Origin: a virus | Virus record (IMG/VR): IMGVR_UViG_3300048113_000120 | Span: 1 to 30,608 of that record | Strand: one strand, 5' to 3' | DNA length: 30,608 nt | Shown here: piece by piece, positions 13,768 to 25,560 of the stretch | Position numbering within the stretch: the stretch's first letter is position 1 | How the letters are laid out: every line of letters starts with the position of its first letter | Translations under genes and position numbers: made by a program | Notes under the pieces: generated by a model | The model's input: only the letters and a program-made list of their open reading frames with translations | What the model was told of the DNA's origin: nothing | Database searches by the model: none

Positions 13768-14106
13768 ATGAGCGCGGCAAAGTATAATTTAACGATAGAT
13801 CAAGGCTCTGATTTTAGCCTTACGCTAAACGTCAAAGAAGATGGCGTTAATAAGAACCTAAATGGATGGAATGCCAGAGGCAGTATCAGAGAAACACTAG
13901 AGGGCGCAGAGGTTGATGCTTTTGATTTCACTGACTCTACTTTTGATAGCGCAGGTAATCTTGTAATGAAACTATCTCACAATGAGACGACCCTGATTAA
14001 TGCAGGTAATTATTATTACGATGTTGAAATATTTAATACATCTGATGATAAGGCGACTAGAATTATACAGGGCAAAATCACTGTAACAAGACAGGTGACT
14101 AGATAA
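13768..14106 (+). CDS. Baseplate/fibre attachment protein (Ig-like, BppU-like N-domain)
   Basis: 112 residues. The pattern 'YNLTIDQGSDFSLTLNVKEDG' followed by a WNARGSIRE strand and ending with ATRIIQGKITVTRQV is a compact all-beta fold seen at the N-terminus of baseplate upper proteins and in small cyanophage virion proteins. The start has ACGAGG upstream. Its stop overlaps the start of the giant fibre gene (TAATG), so the two are translationally coupled. It probably forms the collar through which the fibre attaches. Function is inferred from fold resemblance and neighbours. Confidence 0.55.
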   Translation: MSAAKYNLTIDQGSDFSLTLNVKEDGVNKNLNGWNARGSIRETLEGAEVDAFDFTDSTFDSAGNLVMKLSHNETTLINAGNYYYDVEIFNTSDDKATRIIQGKITVTRQVTR

Positions 14107-17100
14107 TGATTTTAACAGTAACAGTAATTGACTCAACAGGCATAACGCTATCTGGCGACCAAACTGAAATCTCAGTAGTTAACCCCGCAACTAGTGTCAC
14201 TTACAATCCTGTTGCACCATTCACTGCTACAGATGTGCAAAATGCTCTGCCGCAAGCGCATAAAATGATCGGTGAGCAGTCTAATAATTACTCTGTTACT
14301 TTAGATTATGGCAATGAGTTTGAAATTTCTAACGGCTCTGATTTTGCTAGACTTAATGCTTTGGGAAGTTTTTCGGGATTTTTTGCAAATCTTGAATCCT
14401 CTGACAAAATAGCCTTTATTACTGACGGCAATTTGAATGCCTTGCTTAATAATAGTGGCTCAACCTTTTATGACAAGTTAGAGGCTGAGGGTTCTGGTTC
14501 TATTGTTGATGGAATAATCCAAACCAACAACACAAGCGGAAATACTAGGCATCATTTGCAGATGAGAAACTCTGGTAGCTCTAAAGGTTTTTTAGGTACA
14601 ACTAGCTCACAAGTTTTTCTAGGTAGAGCTAGTGGCTCTGTCTCATTTGATTTTACTTTTTTTGGCGGCAGTTTTTCACCATCTAATCAATATGGCGACA
14701 CTAAAGATGGTGTTATAAACTTAGGTAAGACTAACTCTAGGTTTAAGGACTTATACTTATCAGATAATCTCTACGCTGATGGCGTATCTTTTGAAGATGC
14801 TAATATTACATTTACTACAGACCAGTTTACTGTTGATAACGCAAGCAACAACAACCTGATTTCTACAACCAGTCAGAGCGTAAATTTAAAATACGATGGT
14901 ATTCAAAGGTTAGCGACAACAAATTCTGGCGTTAGTATTACTGGTAGCTTAGATGCAACAACTGGCAATATATCAAACTTAAACACAAGCGGTACAGTAT
15001 CAGCAGGAAATGTTGTAGTTTCTGGCAGTGTGTCTGTTGACGGCACTGTAGATGGTCGAGACCTTTCAGTAGATGGCGGCAAATTAGATAACATTGAAAG
15101 CAATGCTACAGCAGATCAGACAGATGCGGAAATTAGAGCCGCAGTGGATGCCGCAACAGATTCAAATGTTTACACCGATGCAGAAAAAACTAAACTAACT
15201 AGCATTGAGACAGGCGCAACAGCAGATCAAACTGATGCAGAGATTCGTTCGGCTGTAGCCAGTGCAACAGACTCAAACGTATTTACTGACTCTGAAAAAA
15301 CAAAACTTAGTGGGGCGGCTGAGTTAGATTCATCTCCTACCTTCACTGGAACTGTATCATCCACAGGTCTAGCAGTAGACACAGATACGCTTTATGTAGA
15401 CGAAGCAAACGATCGGGTAGGTATTAACACATCATCGCCAGATTACAATCTAGTTGTTGCCGACACTGGCACATCAACAGTACAGATCAAAGCAGGAAAT
15501 GCTAATTATAGTCAGCTTAACTTTGGCGATACAGATGACAATGATATTGGTCAGATAGCATACATTCACGACTCTAATGAGATGCGATTTACTTCAAATA
15601 ATTCGCAGGCAATGGTTATCGACTCATCAGGTAAAGTAGGTATAGGAACTAGTAGTCCTAGTCATCAGCTATTGGTACAGCGTTCCGATGACACGTTAGG
15701 TAATGCTGTTATAGGTTTTCAACCTCAATACGAAAGCGGTGGCGGTTCTTATATACGTTGGGGTGGCTCTTCTGTAGCAGGTGGTATTTTGCGGTTTTTA
15801 GGTGTTAATAACAATGAACGTATGCGTATCGACTCATCAGGCAGAGTGGGTATAGGTACTACTAGTCCTAGCTCTCCTTTGACTGTAGCTACATCTACTT
15901 CTAGTTGGACTACCCATTTATACAACAACGCACCGTCAGGCTCTAAGTCTGGCTTATTATTAGATGCGGGTTCAACCGTATCAGATTATGCAATGTACGT
16001 TCGCAACGCAGCTACTAACGCTGATTTCTTTACTATTAGAGGAGATGGCAACGTAGGTATTGGTACTACTAGTCCTGCCGCTAAACTTCATGTGCAGTCA
16101 GGTAGTGAAGCAATTAGAGTCAACACCGCTAACGAAAATACCTATATGTCGTTTGGTGGCACTCGTGCTATGTTTGGTTATGCGCGTATTGACGCTACTG
16201 ATGTGACTTGTATTCAGGGTAGCACAGGTAAAGGTATTGTTTTTTGCACAGATAACTCTGCGTTCGGTTCTGGCGAAAAAGCGCGTATCACCGCATCAGG
16301 TAACGTAGGTATAGGCACTGATAGTCCCGCACAAAAGACACATCTTAGTGGTGCAGGTACACAATACTTACGAGTTGAAAATACATTAAACTCAGTTGTG
16401 ACTGATTTCGGAACAACCAGCACAGGTTCTACAATTATCAATCGTAGCGCACATCCAATGTCGTTTTTCACAAACTCTACAGAACGTATGCGTATCGACT
16501 CAGTAGGCAACGTAGGTATAGGTACTACTAGTCCTGACCAGAAATTAGAAGTAGACGGTGGAATAAAAGTTACAAATAACTTTACAGGAGAAACATCCGC
16601 TAATTCTGGTTATTTTGATTTTGTTCCTGCAACATCTACAGCAAGAATCACAACTAAAGGCACTGACGGCTCAACATTAGGTAAGTTTGAAATATTACAA
16701 CAAGCATCTGATGGTAGTCCAAATGCAACACCATTCACTATAGATGCTAATAGCAACGTAGGTATAGGTACTACTAGTCCTGATGTTAAGTTAGATGTAA
16801 CAGAAGCATACGATACAGTAGCTAATGTTTTATCTAACGGTTCTTATGCGGCTAAGTTTAGCTCGTCAGGCTCAGGTAACGCAGGAAGAGCGCAAGGTAT
16901 CCTTTTATCAGGGCAAAATGGAAATATTAGAGGTGTTGCTTTGTTGGCTGAAGCAAAAAACACTGGCAATGCACATGACTTTGTTATAGCTACAAGTGCG
17001 GCTACTTCTACACCTACAGAACGCATGCGCATAACCTCATCAGGCAATGTAGGTATAGGTACTACAACAGTAGGTCAGTTTGCTTCTACAAATGTTGGCT

Positions 17101-17777
17101 TAACAGTCGATAGCGGCAACGATTACTCTGGTATTGCTGTTACTGATGGTTCAACTACGTCAACGCTTGCTCAGGGTTTTAGCACGACCTATCTGTACAA
17201 CCAAGCAAACGGCTCTATGCTTTTCGGTACTAACAACACAGAACGTATGCGGATTACATCATCTGGCAACGTATTGATAGGCACTACTGATGTTTCTTTA
17301 TTCAATAATAACTCATCTGGTGCAAACAGTAATGGCGCGCTAATCACTGCCTCTGGTGAAATGCAAGTTGCTAGATATGGGGGAACGTGTTTATATCTAA
17401 ATCGCATGGCTGATGATGGTTCAGCTTTAAACTTTTATAATAGAGGGGCTTTAGAAGGCTATATAAACACAACCCAGTCTGGCGTATCTCTTGTTAGTGT
17501 TTCAGACCAAAGATTAAAAGAAAATATTACAGACTCTGGTGATGCAGGAAGCACAATAGACTCTATACAGGTAAGGCAGTTTGATTGGATTGCTAATGGA
17601 AAGCATGAAGATTATGGCTTTGTTGCACAAGAGTTAGCTAACGCAGTGCCTGATGTCGTATATACAGGAGAAGACGAAGACGAAACAATGGGTGTTGACT
17701 ACAGCAAGTTAGTGCCTATGTTAATTAAAGAAATACAAACATTACGCAACCGAGTTGCACAACTGGAGAACAACTAA
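14106..17777 (+). CDS. Self-cleaving tail fibre with C-terminal S74 intramolecular chaperone
   Basis: 1,223 residues, the largest gene. The N-terminus is probably the attachment domain. Two tandem 37-residue repeats (TADQTDAEIR...EKTKL) occur near residues 333-405. About nine repeats of the G-x-VGIGTTSP type, often preceded by ERMRI, cover residues 435-1060 and should form a trimeric beta-rich shaft. The C-terminus is a Peptidase_S74 domain: SDQRLKENI places Ser1133 and Lys1138 five residues apart, as in the known Ser-Lys dyad. Cleavage before Asp1134 would release a chaperone of about 90 residues ending in a coiled coil (LIKEIQTLRNRVAQLENN). It is likely the main adsorption fibre. Confidence 0.88.
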   Translation: MILTVTVIDSTGITLSGDQTEISVVNPATSVTYNPVAPFTATDVQNALPQAHKMIGEQSNNYSVTLDYGNEFEISNGSDFARLNALGSFSGFFANLESSDKIAFITDGNLNALLNNSGSTFYDKLEAEGSGSIVDGIIQTNNTSGNTRHHLQMRNSGSSKGFLGTTSSQVFLGRASGSVSFDFTFFGGSFSPSNQYGDTKDGVINLGKTNSRFKDLYLSDNLYADGVSFEDANITFTTDQFTVDNASNNNLISTTSQSVNLKYDGIQRLATTNSGVSITGSLDATTGNISNLNTSGTVSAGNVVVSGSVSVDGTVDGRDLSVDGGKLDNIESNATADQTDAEIRAAVDAATDSNVYTDAEKTKLTSIETGATADQTDAEIRSAVASATDSNVFTDSEKTKLSGAAELDSSPTFTGTVSSTGLAVDTDTLYVDEANDRVGINTSSPDYNLVVADTGTSTVQIKAGNANYSQLNFGDTDDNDIGQIAYIHDSNEMRFTSNNSQAMVIDSSGKVGIGTSSPSHQLLVQRSDDTLGNAVIGFQPQYESGGGSYIRWGGSSVAGGILRFLGVNNNERMRIDSSGRVGIGTTSPSSPLTVATSTSSWTTHLYNNAPSGSKSGLLLDAGSTVSDYAMYVRNAATNADFFTIRGDGNVGIGTTSPAAKLHVQSGSEAIRVNTANENTYMSFGGTRAMFGYARIDATDVTCIQGSTGKGIVFCTDNSAFGSGEKARITASGNVGIGTDSPAQKTHLSGAGTQYLRVENTLNSVVTDFGTTSTGSTIINRSAHPMSFFTNSTERMRIDSVGNVGIGTTSPDQKLEVDGGIKVTNNFTGETSANSGYFDFVPATSTARITTKGTDGSTLGKFEILQQASDGSPNATPFTIDANSNVGIGTTSPDVKLDVTEAYDTVANVLSNGSYAAKFSSSGSGNAGRAQGILLSGQNGNIRGVALLAEAKNTGNAHDFVIATSAATSTPTERMRITSSGNVGIGTTTVGQFASTNVGLTVDSGNDYSGIAVTDGSTTSTLAQGFSTTYLYNQANGSMLFGTNNTERMRITSSGNVLIGTTDVSLFNNNSSGANSNGALITASGEMQVARYGGTCLYLNRMADDGSALNFYNRGALEGYINTTQSGVSLVSVSDQRLKENITDSGDAGSTIDSIQVRQFDWIANGKHEDYGFVAQELANAVPDVVYTGEDEDETMGVDYSKLVPMLIKEIQTLRNRVAQLENN
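15103..15320 (+). repeat. Tandem repeat in fibre gene, period 111 bp
   Basis: Two copies of a 37-codon unit. The GCAGATCA word at 15111 recurs at 15222, exactly 111 bases later. The protein units share TADQTDAEIR, ATDSNV and EKTKL. DNA identity is lower than protein similarity, so the duplication is not very recent. Confidence 0.8.
15411..17294 (+). repeat. Dispersed VGIGT repeats in fibre gene
   Basis: Nine copies of a ten-codon motif start near 15411, 15630, 15840, 16047, 16299, 16506, 16751, 17043 and 17265. In four of them the word ACTACTAGTCCT is identical down to third codon positions, and the ERMRI lead-in at 15818 and 16484 shares 21 consecutive identical bases. The intervening segments are not similar to each other at DNA level. 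Confidence 0.85.
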
Positions 17778-23636: not shown

Positions 23637-23654
23637 CCCGCCCCGAAGGGCGGG
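23637..23654. other. Perfect GC hairpin after the SSB gene
   Basis: CCCGCCC pairs with GGGCGGG around a CGAA loop. On the plus strand no T-run follows (TAAACC). On the minus strand the hairpin has a TTCG loop and is followed by GTTTTT, so it looks like an intrinsic terminator for antisense transcription. On the plus strand it may stabilise or protect mRNA ends. Confidence 0.7.
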
Positions 23655-23717: not shown

Positions 23718-23912
23718 ATGATAGATTTTGGCGAGTGCTTAAAGAAGGCACAGCAAGAAAAAAACGTAAACAGTTCACAGCTTGCACGATTGGTTGGCGT
23801 TCACAGACAGCAGGTTAACATCTGGCGCAATAAAACAAACGTGAGGTTAGATACTGCCATTAAGATTTGCAGTGCCTTAGAATACAATTTAGATGAGTTT
23901 ATCGGCCTATAA
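23718..23912 (+). CDS. XRE-family helix-turn-helix regulator
   Basis: 64 residues from ATG 23718, with AGGAG 8 bases upstream; the frame is open upstream but would pass through an unlikely leader. The protein is one HTH domain: SSQLARLVGVHRQQVNIWRNKT holds the two DNA-contact helices (about 20-42), followed by LDTAIKICSALEYNLDEFIGL, the standard closing helices. It lacks a dimerisation or cleavage domain, so it is Cro-like rather than CI-like. It may control early genes, with the inverted repeat at 22243-22260 as a candidate operator. Two terminator-like hairpins follow it. Confidence 0.85.
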   Translation: MIDFGECLKKAQQEKNVNSSQLARLVGVHRQQVNIWRNKTNVRLDTAIKICSALEYNLDEFIGL

Positions 23913-23915
23913 AAG

Positions 23916-23937
23916 AAAACCCCCTTGCGGGGGCTTT
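23916..23937 (+). terminator. Intrinsic terminator after the XRE gene
   Basis: CCCCC 23920-23924 and GGGGG 23929-23933 form a 5-bp GC stem with a TTGC loop. AAA upstream can pair with TTT downstream past a bulged C. The T-run is short (CTTTGC), so it may be only partly efficient; a second hairpin follows at 23980. Confidence 0.6.
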
Positions 23938-23979
23938 GCAATTACATCAAAGAAATGTAATACTGCATTTGCGGATACA

Positions 23980-24035
23980 GAAAGGTAAGTCTAACACAGT
24001 ATTTTACTGTCTTGTAACATCTCCTTTCTTTTTTT
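23980..24035 (+). terminator. Compound hairpin with T-run
   Basis: GAAAGG 23980-23985 pairs with CCTTTC 24023-24028, enclosing a second perfect hairpin ACAGTA-TTT-TACTGT at 23996-24010. Seven T follow at 24029-24035. This is a plausible second terminator, or the 3' end of a small RNA starting after the XRE gene. Confidence 0.55.
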
Positions 24036-24314
24036 CGCGCTTTAGTTATCGGGCTAGAGGCTAGGGAATCTCTTAAATAAAACCCTAGAGCGAAGTTGAC
24101 CCTCTTGACATAGCCCCAAAAGCAGATCGGTTTCTGCTGATGGATAGATTAGATATTCGATACGATAACGAAACAACCGCGAAGTCGCTTTGCCCTTTGA
24201 TCGAATTTTTAACTTTGCGAAGTTAAAGGGTGAAACGTGTTTGAATAAAAATGTTTACACAATAACTATTAACATAATCAGGCGAGGCTAGTCCGAGCCA
24301 TAGGAGTTACAAAA

Positions 24315-24533
24315 ATGACACAGATATCAAGAGTTCTACAATACTTAGAAGATGGCAAGAAACTAACCTGCCTAAACGCTTTTAATGAGCTAGGAATAAC
24401 ACAGGTAGCCGCTAGAATCTTTGAGCTTAAGGAGCTAGGGCATCCAATCCAGAAGAACATGATTACAGTGACCAACCGATACGATGAAAAATGTAGTGTC
24501 GCTGAATACTATATGGGTGATAGCCATGCCTAA
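24315..24533 (+). CDS. Helix-turn-helix protein (HTH_39-like)
   Basis: 72 residues, with TAGGAG upstream. The form 'ISRVLQYLEDGKKLTCLNAFNELGITQVAARIFELKELGHPI' followed by a short beta wing and VAEYYM is the HTH_39 winged-helix pattern common in small phage proteins near replication genes. It could bind the structured region immediately upstream or regulate it. The next gene starts 8 bases before its stop. The specific target is unknown. Confidence 0.8.
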   Translation: MTQISRVLQYLEDGKKLTCLNAFNELGITQVAARIFELKELGHPIQKNMITVTNRYDEKCSVAEYYMGDSHA

Positions 24534-25191: not shown

Positions 25192-25560
25192 ATGTTACTA
25201 AATAACGGAGATACTTACGAGGCAGATCAGGCAGACATTATCCAGTGGGAAAAGACTTATCCTGCCATTAATGTTTACCAAGAGCTGAATGCAATGGAGT
25301 CGTGGTTAGATGCTAACCCTACGCGCAGGAAAACACCTAAAGGGATTAAGAGGTTTATTAACTCTTGGTTGGCTAGAGCGCAAGATAAAGGCGGCTCACC
25401 GCAGGTTAAATCTAAAACCCACAGCATCAGGAATAGGAACATTGAAGACAGCCTAGCTGATGTGTCGTGGATTGCTAACGTAGAAGCAAAGAACAGAGCC
25501 ATTAATTTCTTCATGGGAAAGTATGGTTTTTACTGGGATGGGGAGAGAAAACATGGGTAA
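25192..25560 (+). CDS. Replication-associated protein (C-terminal-domain type)
   Basis: 122 residues, with AGGGGGAAT upstream. The block 'WEKTYPAINVYQELNAMESWLDANP' then RRKTPKGIKRFINSWLARAQDKGG is the small domain often found at the C-terminus of phage replication initiators and primosome-type proteins, here as a stand-alone protein. It may act in recruiting host replication proteins together with its neighbours. The last 40 residues are basic with an aromatic end (FFMGKYGFYWDGERKHG). The next gene starts 8 bases before its stop. Confidence 0.65.
   Translation: MLLNNGDTYEADQADIIQWEKTYPAINVYQELNAMESWLDANPTRRKTPKGIKRFINSWLARAQDKGGSPQVKSKTHSIRNRNIEDSLADVSWIANVEAKNRAINFFMGKYGFYWDGERKHG

Follow-up and report, generated by a model that had tools for sequence, protein, structure and literature searches.

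What is encoded in a 402-bp gap, positions 23913-24314, that separates a regulatory gene from the replication genes of a phage? The sequence analyzed here, referred to as the window, is the whole 30,608-nucleotide virus record IMGVR_UViG_3300048113_000120 of IMG/VR. It has an exact terminal repeat of 127 bp and so probably represents the full circular genome of a phage, ~30.5 kb in size. All of its main genes are carried on the + strand. In a 1223-aa tail protein (14106-17777), the VGIGTTSP repeat recurs many times and the C-terminus resembles an intramolecular chaperone. The first-pass annotation located the gap between an XRE regulator and the replication region, and this is correct: the XRE reading frame ends at 23912 and that of an HTH_39 gene starts at 24315, followed by genes for an N6/N4 methyltransferase, C1, C0, NinB, an exonuclease/metallophosphoesterase, and NinG.

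Comparative analysis indicates that the + strand of 24043-24235 encodes an RNA of ~190 nt, composed of seven helices and a 5-bp pseudoknot (Table 1). Folded alone, the window's sequence is only mildly unusual (z = -1.66; 13 of 200 shuffles fold equally well or better), and relatives are needed to make the case. IMG/VR, queried by protein and by DNA pattern, yielded dozens of contigs with the element, whose distinct sequences were aligned. When a hand-derived structure model was counted on 37 sequences (alignment A2), 94.7% of cells pair and both sides change in 23 of the 43 pairs. Doubly changed cells number 220 versus 67.5 in shuffles, and in slid controls the paired fraction falls to 36-44%. 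RNAalifold recovered P1, P2, P2a, P3, and P4 unaided. In a separately retrieved set of more divergent members (A7), 34 of 39 pairs covary, including all 7 of P1, a result that leans towards the model because these sequences were fitted to it. The covariance model built for the family, R1, reaches relatives down to E about 1e-5.

The pseudoknot joins the P3 loop to the bases immediately 5' of P4. Of 51 distinct sequences, 41 have four or more Watson-Crick pairs here, versus a mean of 20.4 and a maximum of 28 sequences in the shuffled control, and the pairing is found as CGGUU:AACCG, CGGUA:UACCG, UGACU:AGUCA, CAGUG:CACUG, UGGUU:AACCA, CGGCA:UGCCG, and GAGCA:UGCUC. The excess of GU over AC wobbles, 118 to 3, assigns the fold to the + strand, although such counts cannot distinguish an RNA from + strand single-stranded DNA. 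A variant of the RNA with an extra hairpin inserted beside P2a is seen in six loci (L318, L330, L331, L336, L337, and L339). The first-pass annotation had argued that the gap must be under selection, with covariation in aligned relatives as the check and a lack of stem conservation, or descent from a decayed gene, as the refutation. The stems in fact covary in dozens of phages, which bears out selection and rules out the gene remnant.

Table 1. Features of the gap and of its flanking genes, in window coordinates
Feature	Position	Strand	Remarks
XRE (Cro/C1-type HTH) regulator	23718-23912	+	usual upstream neighbour of the RNA
Candidate promoter of the window's lineage, TTGCAA-N16-TAATAC	23936-23963	+	weak; direct reading
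Extra 5' stem, AGAAAGG 23979-23985 / CCTTTCT 24023-24029	23979-24029	+	'long-gap' lineage only
Conserved structured RNA, type I	24043-24235	+	matches R1 at 215 bits (the window is a training sequence)
P1 5' strand, GTTATCG	24045-24051	+	pairs with 24163-24169; covaries (GUAUUCG/CGAAUAC, GUGAUCG/CGGUCAC etc.)
P2 5' strand, GGCTA	24052-24056	+	pairs with 24111-24115
P2a 5' strand, CTAGGG	24061-24066	+	pairs with 24083-24088; 5/6 pairs covary
P2a 3' strand, CCCTAG	24083-24088	+	pairs with 24061-24066
P2b 5' strand, AAG	24093-24095	+	pairs with 24104-24106 (AAG/CUU, UGG/CCA, GAG/CUC)
P2b 3' strand, CTT	24104-24106	+	pairs with 24093-24095
P2 3' strand, TAGCC	24111-24115	+	pairs with 24052-24056
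P3 5' strand, GCAGA	24122-24126	+	pairs with 24133-24137; 5/5 pairs covary
P3 loop, pseudoknot 5' strand, CGGTT	24128-24132	+	pairs with AACCG 24175-24179
P3 3' strand, TCTGC	24133-24137	+	pairs with 24122-24126
Near-invariant junction, GGATAGATTAGATATTCGATACGA	24142-24165	+	
P1 3' strand, CGATAAC	24163-24169	+	pairs with 24045-24051
Pseudoknot 3' strand, AACCG	24175-24179	+	abuts P4
P4 5' strand, CGAAG	24180-24184	+	pairs with 24195-24199
P4 3' strand, CTTTG	24195-24199	+	pairs with 24180-24184
P5 5' strand, TTTAACTT	24208-24215	+	pairs with 24220-24227
P5 3' strand, AAGTTAAA	24220-24227	+	pairs with 24208-24215
A+T-rich spacer, candidate DNA unwinding element	24236-24280	+	78% A+T in the window
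Conserved hairpin, GGC-GA-GG..CC-GA-GCC	24281-24299	+	precedes Shine-Dalgarno (24302-24306)
HTH_39 winged-helix gene	24315-24533	+	variable cassette separating the RNA from C1
C1, headless replication-initiator tail	25192-25560	+	122 aa

The repeats that first drew attention to the gap are only partly explained by this fold. Dense inverted repeats are indeed present (CTAGGG/CCCTAG, TTTAACTT-TGCG-AAGTTAAA, and others), but the density of hairpins at the 5' end owes something to a terminator-like G5/C5 hairpin at 23920-23933, which lies outside the conserved RNA. This hairpin and another GC-rich one at 23637-23654 have T tracts on the - strand side, as if they were leftward terminators, in contrast to the rightward direction of the main genes. 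Two mutually exclusive pairings had also been proposed. One, CTAGGG/CCCTAG, is P2a and is kept with covariation in 37 of 37 relatives; the other, CGCTTTAG/CTAGAGCG, is not conserved, and CGCTTTAG is confined to the window's lineage. A switch between the two is rejected on this ground, and the conserved alternative pairing or expression platform that would mark a riboswitch is likewise not found. Likewise, the three copies of GCGAAGT exist (24090, 24179, and 24217) but do not form a motif. They fall in P2b, P4, and P5, three different structural positions, vary independently, and are retained in only 7, 4, and 3 of the 37 sequences. Given this low retention and a genome-wide count close to expectation (4 copies versus 2.9), they are rejected as a repeat or iteron. 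Judged by the alignment, the CGCTTTAG/CTAGAGCG pairing and the GCGAAGT triplet are lineage-specific coincidences.

The predicted RNA is common to dozens of marine phages and belongs to a family not previously listed. At the gathering threshold, Rfam 15 has no match in the whole window. With E relaxed up to 10 at the locus, RsaF scores highest on the + strand within the element, at 18.6 bits (gathering 60), and divergent members of the family give no Rfam match at E 0.1. A group I or group II intron is rejected since no Rfam intron model matches, and a tRNA or tmRNA since ARAGORN reports no gene. No relatives were found at the DNA level among GenBank phages, and no convincing element was found in HTVC026P, HTVC111P, HTVC112P, or DSL-LC06. 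Bacterial genomes gave 4 stretches in a pattern scan, none of which is supported by the covariance model. The model itself has no hit in 369 genomes that belong to one class and were reached through a Pseudomonas genome, a set too sparse to be informative. No description of this RNA was found in the literature.

In the relatives, the RNA lies within a constant neighborhood: recombination genes, small proteins, XRE, RNA, a variable cassette, C1, C0, NinB, and the exonuclease. This RNA, termed type I, is nearly always located between XRE and the C1-C0-NinB operon irrespective of the inserted cassette. The interval from RNA to C1 (24315-25191 and the equivalent place in relatives) is an insertion hotspot in which HTH_39, methyltransferases, and many unknown genes are exchanged.

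The flanks of the RNA are also patterned. Of 74 distinct relatives, 30 have a -35-like hexamer whose first base is precisely 36 nt upstream of P1, and the hexamer 17 nt after it, 7 nt upstream of P1, is mostly -10-like. With this spacing, transcription is predicted to start at the first base pair of P1. In the window's lineage, this arrangement is replaced by an extended 5' region that contains a candidate promoter of its own and an extra stem. On the other side, the A+T content of the spacer averages 82% in 72 relatives versus a background of 58%. A hairpin close to the Shine-Dalgarno sequence (GGCGAGGC..CCGAGCC) follows the spacer and is kept although the next gene varies; it contains tandem G-A mismatches, and other lineages carry CGCUUUAGCG at this place. 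No intrinsic terminator is found after the RNA and before the operon. GC-skew analysis, in a genome whose genes all run one way, reveals no switch at the site.

The constant downstream partner, C1, corresponds by its alignments to the C-terminal tail of replication initiators of the O/DnaD type, present on its own and lacking the DNA-binding head. It aligns only with the ends of initiators (phrog_1032 positions 189-256, with E values of 0.0056 for the window and 2.7e-4 for L312), so that of the two parts that characterize these initiators, C1 has the conserved C-terminal tail and not the N-terminal DNA-binding head. In related phages the same tail follows an N-terminal domain that, where identified, is a DNA-binding wHTH or a DnaD-like head. 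The phiRgIBDN1 protein gp42, a DnaD-like helicase loader, matches C1 (47% over 83 aa), and a relative of C1 in Vibrio phage H20_0038 consists of HTH_36 plus the tail. C1 has, in addition, a small C-terminal module of the type DISW...(K)YG..DG. Its AlphaFold model (mean pLDDT 85) has no significant PDB match. A search that recovered 5 of 6 control loci detected no relocated head in any of 24 headless loci, the window being covered over its whole genome.

The RNA and the headless protein go together. Choosing loci by the C1-type protein alone gives a non-redundant set of 97 with 1300 nt or more of upstream sequence, of which 90 carry the type I RNA. Another five (L320, L335, L429, L437, and L456) carry a type II structured RNA at the same place, and in the last two (L314 and L495), also with headless C1-type proteins, neither RNA type is detected upstream. 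A reciprocal search with the tail alone yielded 5 complete headless loci and 70 headed loci, headed meaning an N-terminal extension of 97-229 aa, whose DNA-binding or helicase-loader domain is profile-confirmed in examples only. The type I RNA is present in none of the 70 headed loci and in 4 of the 5 headless ones (L383, L390, L398, and L410), where it is directly upstream of C1; the fifth, L415, has type II. A 16-bit match downstream of the tail in L406 is judged to be chance. The difference between headless and headed loci (Fisher P = 4e-6) is overstated by phylogenetic non-independence, as the headless loci may share few losses of the head. These counts nevertheless link the RNA family to headless initiators, and the co-occurrence suggests that the RNA may help to start phage DNA copying.

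Type II is a conserved structured non-coding stretch (L320 4209-4604, L415 5521-6000, L437 2113-2520, L456 3247-3640, and L335) that occupies the same site in headless-C1 phages without the type I RNA. An analogous arrangement is present in cultured phages of Vibrio cyclitrophicus. Phages 1.275.O and 1.122.A encode headless C1 homologues, and ahead of the genes for a C5 methylase and C1 lies an unannotated gap of ~600 bp that contains long inverted repeats. These gaps (L347 4122-4723 in 1.275.O, L348 3748-4357 in 1.122.A) are 97% alike over 470 bp and are not matched by R1. By eye they resemble type II (GCGGATAAA, GGTCTGGATT), though the alignment, of five sequences, is too weak a basis for homology.

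An origin, a leader RNA, and a non-coding RNA had all been listed as possible at the outset, and the list was fair; the co-occurrence with headless initiators favors, short of proof, a role at a replication origin. The reading we prefer, tentatively and at slightly less than even confidence, is that of an origin dependent on the RNA, which would stand in for the initiator's DNA-binding head and work with C1. In related phages, the N-terminal head would locate the origin and bring in the host helicase. Here, transcription from the head of the replication operon would produce the pseudoknotted RNA of ~190 nt, and the nascent transcript would remain attached to the DNA, either at the promoter from which it was made or through an R-loop in the adjoining downstream A+T-rich stretch. 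The folded transcript would then bind C1 and so place the helicase-recruiting tail at the origin. The promoter at P1 and the A+T-rich stretch after the RNA fit such an origin. However, GC skew does not mark the site, the basic helix of the tail is shared with headed proteins and so is not RNA-specific, and the different RNA of L320, L415, and the cultured Vibrio phages means that the type I fold is not indispensable. A wider version of this idea, ribonucleoprotein initiation in which headless initiators are guided to the origin by nascent pseudoknotted RNAs of at least two folds (type I, and type II as in L320/L415 and perhaps the cultured Vibrio phages), is possible but more doubtful.

The association could also result from RNA regulation of an operon in which a headless C1 happens to be present. 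The main rival is a cis-regulatory leader of the replication operon, a reading that we regard as a serious possibility, though a somewhat less likely one. Such a leader might control elongation, by put-like antitermination or attenuation, or translation, with possible autoregulation by C1 or switching in response to a ligand or host factor. The predicted transcript from P1 enters the operon unterminated, the Shine-Dalgarno-proximal hairpin is conserved, and the RNA immediately precedes C1 in the four loci named above. Its position, moreover, equals that of lambda nutR/tR1, after a Cro-like gene and before the replication genes. Against this, the RNA is followed by very different genes, in many cases not C1, making translational control of a single gene unlikely; no conserved alternative expression-platform pairing is found; and a leader leaves the absence of the RNA from headed initiators unexplained.

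Phages also have compact structured RNAs for host take-over, anti-defense, or use as RNP decoys, and a trans-acting small RNA that merely neighbors the replication genes would account for the lack of a fixed gene immediately downstream. This is unlikely, as the RNA is followed by no terminator and is strictly linked to headless C1 and one genomic site. Least probable of all is loading of the host helicase by the element as folded single-stranded DNA, in the manner of a primosome-assembly site or single-strand origin, because a promoter placed for a transcript start at P1 would be unneeded by a DNA element, even if the location at the replication module and the wobble counts suit it.

Under any of the RNA readings, a strongly conserved, unlisted RNA is widespread in marine phages and tied to the loss of the DNA-binding half of an initiator. 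Even as a mere leader, it would represent a new class of RNA whose fold is defined. If it replaces origin recognition by protein and DNA, it would be the first RNA-guided initiator in phages; to our knowledge, there is no earlier one. The finding makes directly testable how phages with no obvious initiator find their origins, and the cultured Vibrio phages 1.275.O and 1.122.A/B make experiments feasible.

Among known systems, the RNA resembles HK022 put and lambda nut in location, as these too lie behind a cro-like gene where an early phage operon begins. However, put RNAs are about 70 nt with two hairpins, whereas the phage RNA is ~190 nt with a pseudoknot and its P1 encloses a junction, an architecture that differs from that of a put antiterminator. 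The initiators of the lambda O/DnaD type (phrog_1032, phrog_8489, phrog_5708) have a C-terminal tail that aligns with C1, which differs from them in lacking the N-terminal DNA-binding head and in having an extra C-terminus. The 26T RNA of Tetrahymena ORC, an RNA subunit that targets the initiator to its origin (PMC4287346), provides a precedent, but it is eukaryotic, base-pairs with DNA, and has no known homology to the phage RNA. At the R-loop origin oriF of phage T4, a phage promoter is followed by a DNA unwinding element (PMC3016281), an arrangement like the candidate promoter and A+T-rich stretch described here. R-loop formation at oriF, however, is independent of specific sequences, whereas here a conserved fold of 190 nt lies between the two. 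In plasmid ColE1, a promoter and a structured non-coding transcript, RNA II, open the origin and prime replication without a plasmid-encoded initiator (PMC5043065). The phage element likewise combines promoter-like signals with a structured RNA. RNA II, at ~550 nt, acts at a mapped origin, whereas the RNA of ~190 nt has a proposed one and, unlike RNA II, is always accompanied by an initiator-type protein tail.
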